Source: Methylocystis sp. B8
Lineage (GTDB): Bacteria; Pseudomonadota; Alphaproteobacteria; Rhizobiales; Beijerinckiaceae
Length of the DNA stretch: 56,931 nucleotides
Assembly (NCBI RefSeq): GCF_005771425.1
Contig: NZ_VBTZ01000014.1
Coordinates: 1-56,931 of the forward strand
Direction of reading: 5' to 3'
Shown here: piece by piece, positions 48,842 to 55,375 of the stretch
Numbering within the stretch: the first letter of the stretch is position 1
How the letters are laid out: each line of letters opens with the position of its first letter
The notes under the pieces: generated by a model
The model's input: only the letters and a program-made list of their open reading frames with translations
Told to the model about the DNA's origin: nothing
Databases searched by the model: none
Translations under genes and position numbers: made by a program

Positions 48842-49606
48842 ATGCCCCGTTTTGCGGCCTCTCGATACGATTCCATTGTGAACGTCGGGCTGTCGACGCA
48901 AAGCGCGTTTGTTCCAGCGAATCTCAGGCGGAACACGCGCATCTTGATCGTTAGCGACGTGCGTCTGTTTAGCGAAGCGCTCGGGTTGCGTCTCGGTCAG
49001 CATCCAGGAATGTCCATTGTCGCTGTCGTTGCGGGCGACGCCGCTCTGGCGGCGGCCGCTGATTCTAAACCCGATATTGTCCTGCTTGACGTTGGCGAGC
49101 TAGGAGGTCTCGCGATTGCGCAAGATCTTCGCGAACGACATCCAGAGCTGCGAATCGTCGCCATTGGAGCGCCAGCGTCAGCCGGCGCGGCGTTGACCGC
49201 CGCTTGTCAAACCATCGTAGGCGTCGTTCCTCGCGAGGGCTCAGTCGACGACGTCGTCGAACTGCTCGAGCAATTGGCTGCGCCTGCGATTCATTCGATC
49301 GACGAGCGCGGGAAGATTGGCGAGAGTTCGCAAACCGCCGGCGCCGGCGCAAAGGACGCGCTTACGGCGCGCGAACATGAGATTCTCGCGCTCATCGAAC
49401 GCGGGTTGTCGAACAAGGAGATCGCTCGTCGACTGCGCATCGAACTCGGCACAGTGAAGAATCACGTGCACAATGTTCTTCAGAAGTTGCAAGTGCGCGG
49501 ACGTGGCGAAGCGGCGCACTCGATGCGAAAGCGCTCCTCCACACATGATGGAGGAGCGCTTCTTACGCCGACCGATAAAGTCCCGTTTGTTCTCGCGGCT
49601 AAATGA
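48842..49606 (+). CDS. LuxR-type regulator with degenerate receiver domain
   Basis: The protein has 254 residues. An N-terminal receiver-like domain (about 33-150) keeps the likely phospho-Asp in DIVLLDVGELGG but has one Asp instead of the usual acidic pair (IVSDVRLF) and lacks the conserved Lys (GVVPREGS), so phosphorylation may be lost. The NarL/LuxR HTH is strong: LTAREHEILALIERGLSNKEIARRL, GTVKNHVHNVLQKLQV. The C-terminal 30 residues are basic, then loop. AGGAG lies 6 nt before the ATG. The 3' end overlaps the stop of the convergent S8 protease gene by 8 nt and contains that gene's hairpin. Confidence 0.87.
   Translation: MPRFAASRYDSIVNVGLSTQSAFVPANLRRNTRILIVSDVRLFSEALGLRLGQHPGMSIVAVVAGDAALAAAADSKPDIVLLDVGELGGLAIAQDLRERHPELRIVAIGAPASAGAALTAACQTIVGVVPREGSVDDVVELLEQLAAPAIHSIDERGKIGESSQTAGAGAKDALTAREHEILALIERGLSNKEIARRLRIELGTVKNHVHNVLQKLQVRGRGEAAHSMRKRSSTHDGGALLTPTDKVPFVLAAK
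49530..49560 (-). terminator. Hairpin after the S8 protease gene, inside the luxR-type coding region
   Basis: AGCGCTCCTCC (49530-49540) and GGAGGAGCGCT (49550-49560) form an 11-bp perfect stem with a 9-nt loop. It is followed by TTTCGC on the minus strand. It lies 39 nt after the S8 stop. Since it falls inside the last third of the opposite gene's coding region, the LuxR-type protein's C-terminus is bent around it (KRSSTHDGGALLT). Confidence 0.7.
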
Positions 49607-51410
49607 GACCCGCGGCCCGCAGCTGAATCATGCGCTGGATGATCGCGGGATTGATCGCTTGCATCATTGCCGGATTGACCGCCCATGGCGCCGGCGCGCT
49701 CAAGGGAGCAAATCCGTCGACCATGACGCCGGCGGGCGCCAATCCAGCGCTGGCTGGCGCCGCAGCGCCCATCGGCTGGGCGGCCGCGAGACCTGGCACG
49801 CGCTCAAGATCGGGGGCGCCGACGCCTTCGCGCGTCGCCTCGCCGAGATAGCGCACTCCGGACGACGCCACTAGCGAGAAGAGCTGCGCGACGCGCTGTT
49901 CGTTCCGCGCCATCCGCGCCCCAGCAAGAAGCGGATGATGCGCGAGAAGCAACGCCGCCATGCCGGTCACATGAGGCGTCGCCATCGACGTGCCGTCCCA
50001 CGCCGCATAGCCGCCACCGGGCACCGTCGAGACGATCGCGACGCCGGGCGCGGCGACCGCGATCTGCGGTCCAAAGCAGGTGAACTTCGGCGAGAACATC
50101 GAACCCGCGACAAGTTGCGGCACGATGGTCTGAGCGTGGTAGCTGTCGTTTGGAAACTCATCGAGCTTACCCAGCGCCGCGACGGTCAGCACCGTCGGCA
50201 GCATGCCAGGAAACTGCACGGGACCGCTGGAATTTCCGGCCGCAACGATGCAAGCGACACCGTTCTGACGCGCTTCGGCTAATTTTTGCGTCACCAGTTC
50301 CGAAGGGTCGCCGCTGCCGAGGCTCATATTGACGACGTCGAGTTGCCGTTCGATGCATTCGTCGAGCGCGTCGATAAGGTCGCTGAAACGCCCGCCCGGA
50401 AATACCTTCAACGAGTGAACTTCCGCTTTCGGCGCAAAGCCGCGAATGCCGGCGACGCCCCCGTCAGAGGCGGCGGTGATGATTCCGGCGCAATGCGTTC
50501 CATGACCGATTTGATCGTTCGACCAACTCGTCTTGTCGCCGCCATTAGTGAGATCGGCGCCGCGCGTCACATGACGCAGTTGGGGATGCGCGCTGTCGCA
50601 ACCCGAATCGATGATGCCGATCTTGACGCCAGCGCCTGTGAATGAAGCGTCAAGCCGATCGAGCTTCATCAAGCGCTGACCCCAGCCAATCATGCCGGTT
50701 TGTGGGAAGCCGTTGAAGCTGTCGGTCAGCGGACGCAGTTGCACCGTGTTCATCGCGCCGGCCTGGAGCGCTGGCGCGCGAAGCATCCGATCCCAATGAT
50801 CGGCGACGGGTTTCACGTAAATCGCCTGGACGGTCTCAATCGGGCCGCCGAAAACCGTCACGACGACTTCGCCGCGTTCATTCGTGACGCCTTGGCCAGG
50901 AAAACCCTGACCATAGACATAGACCGTCGCTTTCGGCAGCGGCTTGCCGCCTGCCCCTACGACGCGAAGCTGAACGTCGACTCCGACGCCTGCAGCGATC
51001 GGCATCATTCCATTGAAGTCGAAGGGACGAAAATCATCCGAGGCGCGGAGAAAAGCGTCGCGCTCGACGACGACGTTGGGCGGCGCTGACGCCTGCAGCG
51101 CGGCGCCGCGCGCAGGGTCCATCTCAGCGACGAGAATTTCTGGCGTCTGAGAGGATGACCCGCCGGCTGAAAAGGCGTTAAGCCCGCGGGGCGCAATCCG
51201 CCGCACAATCTTTACATCGGGGAGCGCATTGGCCAGATCCGTCGCCGAAGCGGGCGCGAATCCGGGAAGCCGCCGCGAGGCGATCATAAAGCGCTCTGTG
51301 GGCGCGAGCGCCATCGGCTCCACGCGCGTGTCGGCGCCATTCGGCGACGGCGCGGAGGGCCCAGAACTACGACCATTGGGCGCCGGATTACTATTGTCGG
51401 GACCAGCCAT
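49599..51410 (-). CDS. S8 family subtilisin-like serine protease with fused N-terminal prodomain-like region
   Basis: The protein has 603 residues. The first ~35 are Pro/Ser-rich with no signal peptide. Residues 39-121 look like an I9-type prodomain (TERFMIASRR ... EILVAEMD ... NVVVERDAFLRAS). Residues ~140-210 form a beta-sandwich, perhaps an Ig-like insert (VQLRVVGAGGKPLPKATVYVYG). The catalytic domain has Asp268 (GIIDSGCD), His303 (GHGTHCAGI), Asn393 (AAGNSSGP) and Ser475 (DGTSMATPH), so it should be active. The tail (~530-603) is Ala/Pro-rich and holds GVMVDGFAP (561-569), close to a repeat in the neighbouring protein. AGGAGAG lies 6 nt before ATG. It is the third gene of the minus-strand trio. 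Confidence 0.92.
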   Translation of the reverse strand: MAGPDNSNPAPNGRSSGPSAPSPNGADTRVEPMALAPTERFMIASRRLPGFAPASATDLANALPDVKIVRRIAPRGLNAFSAGGSSSQTPEILVAEMDPARGAALQASAPPNVVVERDAFLRASDDFRPFDFNGMMPIAAGVGVDVQLRVVGAGGKPLPKATVYVYGQGFPGQGVTNERGEVVVTVFGGPIETVQAIYVKPVADHWDRMLRAPALQAGAMNTVQLRPLTDSFNGFPQTGMIGWGQRLMKLDRLDASFTGAGVKIGIIDSGCDSAHPQLRHVTRGADLTNGGDKTSWSNDQIGHGTHCAGIITAASDGGVAGIRGFAPKAEVHSLKVFPGGRFSDLIDALDECIERQLDVVNMSLGSGDPSELVTQKLAEARQNGVACIVAAGNSSGPVQFPGMLPTVLTVAALGKLDEFPNDSYHAQTIVPQLVAGSMFSPKFTCFGPQIAVAAPGVAIVSTVPGGGYAAWDGTSMATPHVTGMAALLLAHHPLLAGARMARNEQRVAQLFSLVASSGVRYLGEATREGVGAPDLERVPGLAAAQPMGAAAPASAGLAPAGVMVDGFAPLSAPAPWAVNPAMMQAINPAIIQRMIQLRAAGLI

Positions 51411-51471
51411 TTCGACTCTCCTAAGAAATCAAGCCAGCCTGCGCGCCACAGAGAAGGACGCGACGCCAGCG

Positions 51472-51717
51472 CTAAAATGGTTTGAGCGGAGCATTCGGTT
51501 CAATGATCAGGGTCGCGCCGAATTGTTCGCGCAACTGACTTGCGCTTGCGGCAGGAAGGGTGACGACCAGCCTCGGCTGCCCGGCCTTGCCGGCGCGCTG
51601 GAGGATTGCGGCGCCCGGGACAGACTGCATCGCCTGTTCGAAAGCCGCTAAATCGCCTGCGCTCGCCGCGTTCCGCGGCGCCACCAGAAATTGATCGTTG
51701 CCGTTCGTTGCGCTCAT
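51472..51717 (-). CDS. Standalone I9-like prodomain/inhibitor-like protein
   Basis: The protein has 81 residues. Its order of strands, DQFLVAPRNAASAGDLAAFEQAM, RLVVTLPAASASQLREQFG and LIIEPNAPLKPF, mirrors the N-terminal region of the S8 protein next to it (TERFMIASRR, EILVAEMD, NVVVERDAFLR). Subtilisin prodomains fold the protease and inhibit it until removed; free-standing ones can act as inhibitors or chaperones. This is inferred from the pattern and neighbourhood, not from a database hit. There is no signal peptide. AGGATCG lies 6 nt before the ATG. The S8 gene follows after 61 nt. Confidence 0.7.
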   Translation of the reverse strand: MSATNGNDQFLVAPRNAASAGDLAAFEQAMQSVPGAAILQRAGKAGQPRLVVTLPAASASQLREQFGATLIIEPNAPLKPF

Positions 51718-51817
51718 GTCGCGATCCTGATCTTTTGTGGGCTCCCAGGCCGAACAATCGGCCCGGGAGCGGCAGCAAAGCATCCTTCACACGCCGCGTC
51801 GATTATGCGGCTCAACC

Positions 51818-53503
51818 TCATCCGTACATCGGCGCCTGCATCTGCGGCGCGTAGTAGACGGGTTGCGGGCCAGCTTCGAACGGCAGGAAGCGCTGAGCGA
51901 GTCCGCCCACCACATTGCCGATCGTCTGGCCGGCGCCGGCGTTGCCGAAGCGTCCGCCAATCCAGCCGCCAACGGGGCCGCCGATCGCGCCGAGCGCGTC
52001 GCCGATAATTCCCTGCGGCGCGAACACGGGCGCGGCCGCCTGCGGTGCGTAATAGACAGGCTGCTGCGGGCCGGCTTCGAACGGCAGGAAGCGCTGGGCG
52101 AGACCGCCCACCACATTGCCAACCGTCTGGCCGACGCCAGCGTTGCCGAAGCGTCCGCCGATCCAGTTGCCGACCCGGCCCCCGACTGCGCCGAGCGCAT
52201 CGCCGATGAAGCCCTGCGGAACGAAAACCGGCTCCGCCTCGAACGGCAGGAAACGCTGAGCAAGACCACCCACCGTGCCGCCGATCGTCTGGCCAAGGCC
52301 GGCGTTGCCGAAACGGCCGCCAATGAAGCCGCCAAGCGGGGCGCCAATCGCGCCAAGCGCGTCGCCGACAATCCCCTGCGGGGCGAACACAGGCGCGGCC
52401 GCCTGCGGCGCGTAGTAGACAGGCTGCTGCGGGCCGGCTTCGAACGGCAGGAAGCGCTGGGCAAGGCCGCCCACCACATTGCCGATCGTCTGGCCGGCGC
52501 TGGCGTTGCCGAAGCGACCGCCGATCCAGCCGCCGACAGGCCCGCCGATTGCCCCAAGCGCGTCGCCGACAATGCCCTGCGGGGCGAAAACCGGAGCCGC
52601 CTCGAACGGCAGGAAGCGCTGAGCGAGACCGCCCACCGTGCCGCCGATCGTCTGGCCAAGGCCGGCGTTGCCGAAACGGCCGCCGATGAAGCCGCCAAAC
52701 GGGGCGCCAATCGCGCCAAGCGCGTCGCCGACGATCCCCTGCGGCGCAAACACAGGCGCGGCTTCGAACGGCAGGAAGCGTTGGGCCAGTCCGCCCACCG
52801 TGTTGCCGATCGTCTGGCCGAGGCCGGCGTTGCCGAAGCGGCCGCCGATGAAGCCGCCAAGCGGGCCGCCGATCGCGCCAAGCGCGTCGCCCACGATCCC
52901 CTGCGGCGCGAAAACCGGAGCCGCCTCGAAGGGCAAAATATTCGCCCTTGTCTGAGGACCCCAATTATCGACGATGCCGATGGGCTGGCGCGCCCAGGGC
53001 GCACTGCCGAACAGGCTCTGCGGCGCGAACTGCGGCGCGGCCTCGAAGGGCAGCAAGCCGCCAAGAAAACCGCCGGCGACGCGGCCGATCTGCTGGCCGA
53101 TATTCTGGTTGCCCAGGGCGCGGCCAAGCGCGCCGCCGCCAAGACCTCCGAGCGCGTTGCCAAGCGCGCCGCCGATAATGCCCTGCGGCGCGAACTGCTG
53201 ATCGACGATAACGCCTTGCGGCGCGAATCCAGGCGCAGCCATCTGCGGGACATAATAGGTTCCAGCGTAAGCTTGCGGACCGGCCTCAAACGGCAGAAAA
53301 CCGCCGAGCACGCCGCCGGCGACGCTGCCGATCTGCCGACCGAGATTCTGATTGCCAAAGGCGCGGCCGAGCGCGCCGCCGCCTAATCCACCCAGCGCGC
53401 TGCCGAGCGCCCCGCCGATGATGCCTTGCGGCGCAAAGTTCTGATCGACAACGACGCCCATAGGCGCGACCGTAGGCGTTGCTCCATTGAAAGCGACTTG
53501 CAT
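51818..53503 (-). CDS. Glycine-zipper repeat protein with LPFEA-separated units
   Basis: The protein has 561 residues made almost entirely of repeats. Eight ~51-53-residue units begin with FAPQGI(I/V)G at residues 23, 104, 198, 252, 306, 373, 427 and 494. Each is a Gly-rich, GxxxG-type hydrophobic stretch (ALGAIGGPLGGFIGGRFG) and ends in LPFEA, which occurs nine times. Units 1-2 are a diverged type; 3-8 are near-identical. Tyr/Pro linkers (GPQQPVYYAPQAAAP) separate some. There is no signal peptide. GGGAGG lies 7 nt before ATG. It precedes the inhibitor-like and S8 protease genes, so it may be their substrate. Family unknown to me. Membrane or self-assembling behaviour is suggested by the GxxxG pattern. 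Confidence 0.85.
   Translation of the reverse strand: MQVAFNGATPTVAPMGVVVDQNFAPQGIIGGALGSALGGLGGGALGRAFGNQNLGRQIGSVAGGVLGGFLPFEAGPQAYAGTYYVPQMAAPGFAPQGVIVDQQFAPQGIIGGALGNALGGLGGGALGRALGNQNIGQQIGRVAGGFLGGLLPFEAAPQFAPQSLFGSAPWARQPIGIVDNWGPQTRANILPFEAAPVFAPQGIVGDALGAIGGPLGGFIGGRFGNAGLGQTIGNTVGGLAQRFLPFEAAPVFAPQGIVGDALGAIGAPFGGFIGGRFGNAGLGQTIGGTVGGLAQRFLPFEAAPVFAPQGIVGDALGAIGGPVGGWIGGRFGNASAGQTIGNVVGGLAQRFLPFEAGPQQPVYYAPQAAAPVFAPQGIVGDALGAIGAPLGGFIGGRFGNAGLGQTIGGTVGGLAQRFLPFEAEPVFVPQGFIGDALGAVGGRVGNWIGGRFGNAGVGQTVGNVVGGLAQRFLPFEAGPQQPVYYAPQAAAPVFAPQGIIGDALGAIGGPVGGWIGGRFGNAGAGQTIGNVVGGLAQRFLPFEAGPQPVYYAPQMQAPMYG
51840..53440. repeat. Tandem coding repeats (periods 162 and ~201 bp)
   Basis: The DNA repeats follow the protein units. 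Starts of successive units in the main array are 54, 54, 67, 54 and 67 codons apart. Blocks of over 100 bp are nearly identical between units 6 and 4, and between 5 and 8, which points to recent duplication or gene conversion. Confidence 0.85.
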
Positions 53504-54173: not shown

Positions 54174-54305
54174 GGCGCACCGACGTCGAGAGTTTCTCGA
54201 GTGAACAACGCTTCTCGCGCCTACAACCCCACGCTCCGTCTCGACGGAGGACCGCGCTTTGACTATATTTTCTTTCACGCGGCATGTGTGTGGCAGGAAG
54301 CGCGG

Positions 54306-54839
54306 GTGAGCGCGAAATCGTTTTCCAACGAAGCATTGTTGTTGCGCGTCGCAGCGGGAGATCGGACGGCTTTTCGCGATCTCTACGCGGCGACGTCGTC
54401 GCGGCTTTATGCGATTTGTCTCGCCTTGTTGAAAGACCGTGCGCGCGCCGAGGAGGCGATGCAGGAATCATTCGTGCGTATCTGGGAGCGCGCTAACGCC
54501 TATGACGAGGCGAAGGGCGCGGCGCTAGCATGGATGAGCGTCGTAACGCGCCGCATCGCGCTTAATGATCTGCGCCGTCGCGACGATGCGCACGATTCGC
54601 TCGACGGCGACGCGTTATTCGAAATCGCGGCCGATCTTCCCGAATACGATCCGATCGGCAAAGGCCGCCTGATGGAATGCCTCAACAAGCTCGAAGCCGA
54701 GCGTCGGAAGTGGGTGCTGCTCGCCTATGTCCACGGCTATTCGCATGAGGAGCTGGCGCGGCGTTTCGAGCGTCCGCTCGGCACGATGAAGTCGGCGTTG
54801 TTTCGCGGGCTGGCGGACCTCAGAAAGTGCATCTCATGA
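54306..54839 (+). CDS. ECF RNA polymerase sigma factor
   Basis: The protein has 177 residues. Region 2 reads LLLRVAAGDRTAFRDLYAATSSRLYAICLAL then AEEAMQESFVRIWERANAYD; region 4 reads LEAERRKWVLLAYVHGYSHEELARRFERPLGTMKSALFRGLADL, with the GTMKSALFRGL recognition helix. The frame opens at a GTG at 54201, but GTG 54306 with AGGAAG 6 nt upstream gives the normal ECF length. It overlaps the anti-sigma gene by 4 nt (ATGA), so both are made together. Stimulus unknown; singlet oxygen or oxidative stress would fit relatives of the RpoE-ChrR type. Confidence 0.92.
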   Translation: MSAKSFSNEALLLRVAAGDRTAFRDLYAATSSRLYAICLALLKDRARAEEAMQESFVRIWERANAYDEAKGAALAWMSVVTRRIALNDLRRRDDAHDSLDGDALFEIAADLPEYDPIGKGRLMECLNKLEAERRKWVLLAYVHGYSHEELARRFERPLGTMKSALFRGLADLRKCIS

Positions 54840-55375
54840 GCGACGACGACGACATCGACGCCGCGCTTTGGGCCGCCGGGGCTTTGACGGCGTCCGAACA
54901 CGCTATCGTCAAGGAGCGGCTTAAGCGCGATCCCGAGCTTGCAGCCAGAGCGCGCGAATGGGAAGAAGCGCTTGCGCCGCTTGCCGCCCTCGGGCCGCAT
55001 GTCGAGGCGCCATATGGCCTCTTGAAGAAGATCGAAGCACGTCTAGAGTCGCGTCTGCGCCTCGAAACCTTAAGCCGTATGCTACCCGTCGAATCCGACG
55101 ACTGGATAAGGTTTTCGCCAGGCGTACGGGTGAAGCTCCTGCACCAAGACGAGGAACTCCAGCGCAAGACGGTGCTTTTCGACATAGAGCCTGGCGCAGT
55201 CTACCCGGCGCACGCGCATGAGCAGGACGAGGAGATCTACGTGATCTCGGGCGACCTTACGATCGGCGACGAGGAATTGGGCCCAGGCGATCTCCATGTA
55301 TCGCCCAAGGGCAGCCGCCATCCGGCGACTATGACCCGCGTGGGCTGCCGCTGCATCGTCTCTATGGCGATGTGA
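54836..55375 (+). CDS. ChrR-like anti-sigma factor with cupin domain
   Basis: The protein has 179 residues. The N-terminal ~75 residues are an anti-sigma domain (IDAALWAAGALTASEHAIVKERL, then a coiled helix DPELAARAREWEEALAPLAAL). The C-terminal cupin of ChrR type is at ~105-170: VYPAHAHEQDEEIYVISGD, GPGDLHVSPKGSRHPATM. The N-domain lacks the H-x3-C-x2-C zinc motif that classic ChrR/ASD proteins use, resembling RskA-type N-termini instead. It should hold the sigma factor inactive until a signal acts. Start ATG 54836 overlaps the sigma stop; an earlier ATG (54827) is in frame. Confidence 0.88.
   Translation: MSDDDDIDAALWAAGALTASEHAIVKERLKRDPELAARAREWEEALAPLAALGPHVEAPYGLLKKIEARLESRLRLETLSRMLPVESDDWIRFSPGVRVKLLHQDEELQRKTVLFDIEPGAVYPAHAHEQDEEIYVISGDLTIGDEELGPGDLHVSPKGSRHPATMTRVGCRCIVSMAM

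Follow-up and report, generated by a model that had tools for sequence, protein, structure and literature searches.

A repeat protein, a stand-alone prodomain-like protein and an S8 protease are linked in Methylocystis and may form a stored-peptide module

We examined a locus of Methylocystis sp. B8 in which three neighbouring genes encode a glycine-zipper repeat protein, a small protein resembling a subtilisin prodomain and a protease of peptidase family S8. The locus lies within a stretch of 56,931 bases (contig NZ_VBTZ01000014.1), which was analysed as a whole and is called the window here. A preliminary description of this stretch had proposed that the three genes constitute a substrate-inhibitor-protease system. 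All three reading frames proved real and lie on the minus strand, where they are transcribed in the order repeat gene, small gene, S8 gene, with gaps of 100 and 61 bases (Table 1). Ribosome-binding sites, judged by eye, are good for the repeat gene (ggGAGGt) and the S8 gene (tAGGAGAg), as had been stated, but only moderate for the small gene (AGGAtc). Purifying selection acts on the S8 gene (omega 0.06-0.08) and the small gene (omega 0-0.07; 6 relatives in each case), and is also seen in the repeat gene when compared with a single relative, locus L003 (dN 0.030, dS 0.216). No signal-like N-terminus was visible by eye in the repeat protein, the small protein or the protease, in keeping with the absence of signal peptides described for the first and last of these. 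A gene for a LuxR-type regulator converges on the S8 gene, and the linked set is better described as four genes than as the three first singled out; this regulator and the hairpin between the repeat gene and the small gene were both absent from the preliminary description.

Table 1. Genes and sequence features of the locus, in window coordinates.
Feature	Position	Strand	Description
Repeat polyprotein gene	51818..53503	-	561 aa; N-terminal unit and further glycine-zipper units with nine LPFEA linkers between them; most units open with PQG; polyprotein nature putative
Stand-alone prodomain-like protein	51472..51717	-	81 aa; E-H-E-E-H-E; cap residues Glu73 and Asn75; tail ends ...PLKPF
S8 (subtilisin family) protease	49599..51410	-	603 aa; PF00082 and intact catalytic residues
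LuxR/NarL-type response regulator	48842..49606	+	Convergent with the S8 gene; 8-base overlap at the S8 3' end
GC-rich hairpin, 12-13 bp	51741..51770	-	Between repeat gene and small gene; no U-tract
Strong inverted repeat	49529..49561	.	Convergent 3' region, within the 3' end of the regulator reading frame, just past the S8 stop; candidate shared transcript end

Among 39 Methylocystis genomes, 15 held some match to the S8 protein, and in only 12 did the match span its full length (residues 1-603), with an identity of at least 91%. The small protein and an adjoining repeat protein were found in exactly those 12, and the convergent regulator in the identical 12, with the repeat gene split across contig ends in one of them (G333). 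Because a single clade may account for these genomes, the counts cannot be treated as independent. Stronger evidence is the recurrence of the gene order in another family, where 8 of 248 genomes carry an S8 relative (seven over most of its length, G1131 partially): repeat gene, small gene and S8 gene follow one another in six of the eight loci (L060 and L073-L077), and not in L069 and L078. Divergent triads with the same order occur in Bradyrhizobium and relatives. The homologues are not scattered, the triad adjoining in all 12 Methylocystis genomes that have it, and the association first described is confirmed as real and larger than it had appeared. Moreover, the divergence of the S8 proteins correlates with that of the small proteins across 28 loci (Spearman 0.884; permuted maximum 0.311). 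A single genome would be compatible with an accidental neighbourhood of unrelated genes; with the same order in divergent genomes and four genes in the same 12 of 39, such an accident has next to no probability.

The S8 profile at E <= 1e-70 recovered only its own genome among 385 of the class, and the module is therefore patchy. A single-sequence search with the small protein returned its own genome alone among 297 of the order, profile A1 found one further genome (G270) among 398 of the phylum, and the repeat alignment A2 found, among 385 genomes of the class, its own and one marginal match (G663, E 2.1e-4). A plasmid search gave no match to the repeat protein and merely two, at E 3-4, to the small protein. 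The source genome holds a second, partial S8 match above the Pfam cut-off (contig C18, 354135-354701), and no second copy of the small gene or the repeat gene was found in it.

The S8 protein matches PF00082 (E 6.6e-41) and belongs to peptidase family S8. Its catalytic residues D268, H303 and S475, the triad reported earlier as intact, are all present together with the oxyanion residue N393. A prodomain (residues ~38-122) is followed by an Ig-like or carboxypeptidase-regulatory-like region (~140-230, weak Pfam matches), the catalytic domain (~250-500) and a Pro/Ala-rich C-terminal tail. Across 39 aligned alphaproteobacterial S8 proteins, Asp, His and Asn are intact in every one and Ser in 37, the Ser region being unreadable in L101, which ends at a contig end, and L078, which is short with a broken frame. 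The protein fell short of both TIGR03895, the cyanobactin PatA/PatG protease model (41.3 bits, cut-off 421.05), and NF042956, the model of IetS, the S8 family anti-phage peptidase of IetAS defence (19.9 bits, cut-off 900); a PADLOC IetS match (E 1.7e-9) covers only part of the catalytic domain. An AlphaFold2 model built from nine close sequences had a pLDDT of 31.8. Three relatives, L052 (6010-7596), L079 and L080 (Streptomyces plasmids), have the prodomain, Ig-like region and catalytic domain, with the catalytic Ser changed to Thr or Ala and the oxyanion Asn to Asp, and are likely pseudoproteases; those of L052 and L079 adjoin Gln-rich low-complexity genes.

The middle gene had been read as a stand-alone prodomain, and this reading is strongly supported. 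An hhalign comparison of the 81-residue protein with the S8 prodomain gave a probability of 97.3 and E 1.8e-11, with four controls below 1%. In a blind search of genus g40, the small-protein profile matched 20 of 117 genomes: 12 of the matches are stand-alone small genes adjoining an S8 gene, and the other eight lie inside the prodomain, at the N-terminus of S8 proteins without a stand-alone gene. The protein also has the beta-alpha-beta-beta-alpha-beta arrangement of the propeptide fold. It is thus homologous to the prodomain of this S8 group, and we make no claim to membership of Pfam family I9, whose inhibitor model, run against 11 small proteins and 8 S8 proteins, gave no match at E <= 1. 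Profile A4 returned nothing significant from the PDB sequences (best E 0.12), and Foldseek gave mostly elongation-factor ferredoxin-like domains, with no subtilisin propeptide among the 50 matches listed. Because POIA1 ranked only in a VIA second look, where it was placed second, fold comparison alone would have missed the propeptide identity. Separately, behind two S8 genes on plasmids of the Rhizobium group lies an 80-81-residue gene of different sequence (L053, 7167-7412; L054, 7181-7423), which by eye could be another stand-alone prodomain; the L053 product has no Pfam match, and the L054 gene lies near CHAT- and TIR-domain genes.

The nine LPFEA motifs described between Gly-rich units of the repeat protein are not a random feature, since 2000 shuffles of the same protein gave at most one; likewise, GxxxGxxxG occurs 40 times, against a mean of 7.6 and a maximum of 19 in 1000 shuffles. 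No Pfam, NCBIfam or PADLOC family matched the protein at E <= 1, and no gasdermin domain was recognised in it. Between loci, the units tested can be sorted into three families that show no significant similarity to one another, namely glycine-zipper units (the window, L075 and the first unit of L060), units of the ELQSFWSVLKKIGQG type (L060, L074) and units of the GFDFGEIFKGIAD type (L076, L077). All eight hand-picked units hold an 18-residue stretch with a hydrophobic moment above that of 98-99.9% of shuffles. The linker is conserved despite this replacement of units, and it co-occurs with the small gene: of the tabulated loci, all 28 that have a small gene encode two or more F-[EDSN]-[AST] linkers, as against none of the 10 that lack it, where no upstream open reading frame (ORF) has more than one. 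This table covers 38 of the 39 distinct alphaproteobacterial loci, L005 being omitted because its repeat gene is cut by the contig end and L064 being a duplicate of L004. The scored upstream ORF differed from the Gln/Gly-rich one at several of the loci that lack a small gene; L069, L078, L112, L113, L115, L118 and L119 were judged from the ORFs read, and linker absence at L114, L116 and L117 comes from the scoring alone, which prefers any upstream ORF with at least two linkers.

The main rival to a store of cleavable peptides is a structural role, in which the repeat protein would be self-assembling material (a fibre, condensate or storage body) that the protease trims or recycles, the linkers being spacers cut incidentally or left uncut. 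Two observations speak for the structural alternative: in the loci read, S8 relatives without the small gene adjoin Gln/Gly-rich low-complexity repeat proteins, which look assembling rather than toxic, and linker number varies from 5 to 9 in the gap-free Methylocystis repeat proteins read. Glycine zippers are also found in aggregating proteins (PMC5380434). Such a role appears unlikely to us, because entire families of units (zipper, ELQSFW type, GFDFGEIF type) are swapped while the F-[EDS]-A linker stays, which would be unexpected for a lattice, and because no signal sequence suited to a surface role is visible. A second form of locus, without small gene or repeated linkers (L078, L112, L113, L115, L118 and L119), encodes a Gln/Gly-rich protein with repeated RQLSQQDVNEVVRQLxPxxPQ segments, and L112, L113 and L119 have an extra helical gene or ORF ahead of the S8 gene. 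For a related repeat protein of 527 residues on a 2.68-Mb contig (P0016), the source gives the name PspC / phage shock protein, in which the glycine-rich repeats have probably been misread.

The small-protein tails at the 28 loci read LKPF, LKAF, LKQF, LQAF, LTPF, LSPF, LKPFDAD, LKPFG, LKQFDPD, LKQFDAD, LKPFDAGQI, LQY or LRF. All present an aromatic residue, which in most of the longer tails precedes D-A, much as it does in GVFDAG and GVFSAG, two of the linkers; among database homologues, the aromatic residue stands at the expected place in 75 of 89 and is absent in 14. In sequence, the tail (LKPF, LKPFDAG) resembles the linker of the repeat protein. The offset from Glu73 to Phe81 equals that from Glu69 (PMC6993865) to Tyr77 in BPN'. 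The linker-like tail, together with a linker kept while units are replaced, lends indirect support to the polyprotein first suggested; its cleavage we infer.

The tail also bears on the possibility that the small protein is a trans-acting folding chaperone for the S8 enzyme, not an inhibitor, the enzyme's own prodomain having drifted. As expected from a partial take-over of the prodomain's role, the small-protein profile matches the prodomains of partnerless S8 proteins better (E 2e-11 to 9e-9) than those of partnered ones (E 1e-7 to 8e-4, L101-L111), and in a larger set no partnered prodomain matched at 1e-6. A foldase would not need a linker-like tail, yet the small protein has one, and S8 enzymes with a small-protein partner still retain an N-terminal prodomain with its E-x-D cap; we regard a chaperone acting in this way as decidedly improbable. 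As to the enzyme's own termini, the S8 protein of L075 (8528-10432 of that locus) has a linker-like FSPFAAAP in its Pro/Ala-rich C-terminal tail, and that tail may therefore be cut too. The idea that the S8 prodomain itself ends in a linker motif (RPF/DF in Methylocystis) was dropped, as the motif is not kept in Bradyrhizobium relatives.

Two types of regulator accompany the module. The LuxR-type regulator lies beside the S8 end in L003-L010 (8 of 8 Methylocystis loci tested), L075, L111 and also L069, while a transcription regulator that we take to be BTAD/SARP-like lies upstream of the repeat gene in L060, L073, L074, L102-L105 and L108-L110; L076 and L077 have neither type beside the module. 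The hairpin between the repeat gene and the small gene is present in 16 of 17 intergenic segments folded, a set that excludes 12 further small-gene loci; it is weak in L077 and is kept in 9 of 9 Methylocystis loci examined; its z score against shuffles, for the window only, is -2.86. All 13 pairs hold in 8 distinct Methylocystis sequences, with two pairs changed on both sides, a covariation that is modest because 16 of 500 shuffles reach the same level. As it has no U-tract, the hairpin may set mRNA ratios rather than end transcription. The inverted repeat at the convergent 3' ends, which has z scores of -5.3 on one strand and -6.2 on the other and can be made out by eye in six relatives, is the candidate for a shared transcript end.

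Some further features surround the repeat gene. A 549-residue antisense ORF covers it (51737-53386, plus strand), and its substitutions relative to L003 look non-coding (pN 0.085 > pS 0.035); in another antisense frame pN/pS is low (0.034/0.175), yet that frame has stops at 17 codons. Just upstream, at 54201-55375, a sigma-factor-like gene is followed by a cupin-like gene that by eye may encode a ChrR-type anti-sigma factor, a pair matched in one of eight Methylocystis loci tested (L003), three of the eight ending short on that side.

The set looks as if it comprised the maker of a chain of small membrane-seeking peptides, a potential cutter and a free-standing copy of the cutter's restraint, and the first interpretation is, overall, partly supported. 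On balance, we consider it probable that the locus encodes a stored-peptide module, in which a polyprotein is cut by the S8 protease under the restraint of the stand-alone prodomain. The product of the repeat gene would be a polyprotein that probably stays in the cytoplasm and consists of short units able to seek membranes or to self-assemble. Once freed of its own prodomain, the S8 enzyme would cut this chain after the linker Phe (LPF/EA, GVF/SAG, LF/DS, the slash marking the predicted cut), and the 81-residue protein would hold the enzyme off by capping its catalytic domain and inserting its C-terminal tail, which resembles the linker, into the active site. This balance would tip on a signal for which the linked transcription regulator may serve as relay, and the released amphipathic or glycine-zipper peptides of 30-60 residues would then assemble or target membranes.

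As no exporter was detected next to the module, active secretion seems less likely than release on lysis or damage to the cell's own membrane, in altruistic death or defence. Action in the producing cell or on lysis is favoured, too, by the lack of an obvious signal sequence and of an ABC ATPase on the window contig (C6), which holds none of the 39 PF00005 matches in the genome, 38 of them above the cut-off. A self-killing or defence role is the least certain part of the proposal, and we hold it to be doubtful. More broadly, and tentatively, the locus could represent a previously undescribed bacterial peptide-release system. In it, interchangeable membrane-active peptides would be kept inert within a polyprotein, and the dedicated subtilase that frees them would be restrained by a stand-alone copy of its own prodomain with a cleavage-site-like tail, giving a possible tunable switch for self-killing, defence or lysis-coupled antagonism.

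Were this so, it would add a bacterial circuit of substrate, protease and inhibitor whose recognition motif, common to inhibitor and substrate, is readable from sequence, and it would illustrate the origin of a stand-alone prodomain inhibitor from its own protease. Three unrelated peptide families on one linker form a natural series in which the cleavage rule, the inhibitor tail and the activity of the peptides are separately testable. Each ingredient has precedent, in stand-alone propeptide inhibitors, protease-activated pore formers and S8-processed multi-core peptides. A description of the combination of repeat protein, S8 protease and stand-alone prodomain was not found in the titles and abstract openings of the open-access papers listed, a scope in which subscription papers and preprints mostly do not fall.

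Cyanobactin multi-core precursors are processed by the S8 protease PatA and carry repeated short recognition motifs with variable sequence between them. The present locus shares a subtilisin-family enzyme, repeated short motifs and variable stretches between these; it differs in that its S8 protein lies far below the cut-off of the PatA model, and in that its units span 30-60 residues, as against a few in cyanobactins. Caulobacter Cdz, to which the preliminary description had drawn an analogy, resembles the repeat protein in its glycine-zipper sequence and alphaproteobacterial host. Cdz proteins are zipper bacteriocins of an alphaproteobacterium, with 60-151 residues and a leader ending in G[G/A/S] (PMC5380434), and zipper units of about 50 residues would suit a secreted contact toxin of the Cdz or class IIb bacteriocin type. 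The repeat protein has 561 residues in many units and, by eye, no such leader, and no adjacent type I secretion system or ABC ATPase domain was found on the window contig (the neighbours of other loci were not searched); the analogy fails on these points, and a contact toxin is very unlikely.

Parallels also exist in which a dedicated protease is encoded beside a membrane-active proprotein, as in fungal HET-Q1/HET-Q2 and the bacterial gasdermins. HET-Q2 is an S8 protease beside the membrane-active HET-Q1, a pore former cut after P1 Phe238 (PMC10989679). At the present locus the repeat protein has no gasdermin match, short helical or zipper units strung together make up the candidate substrate, and a separate prodomain protein is present. 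Stand-alone subtilisin propeptide-like inhibitors include Pleurotus POIA1, the yeast proteinase B inhibitor, Arabidopsis SPI-1 and Plasmodium SUB1-ProM, the last encoded beside subtilase genes (PMC6993865). The small protein resembles these inhibitors in its propeptide fold, its E-x-[D/N] caps and a C-terminal tail that would reach the active site. Those named are eukaryotic, whereas the protein described here is bacterial, is detectably homologous to the prodomain of its own neighbour and, as a putative inhibitor, is linked to a candidate polyprotein substrate whose linker resembles its tail.
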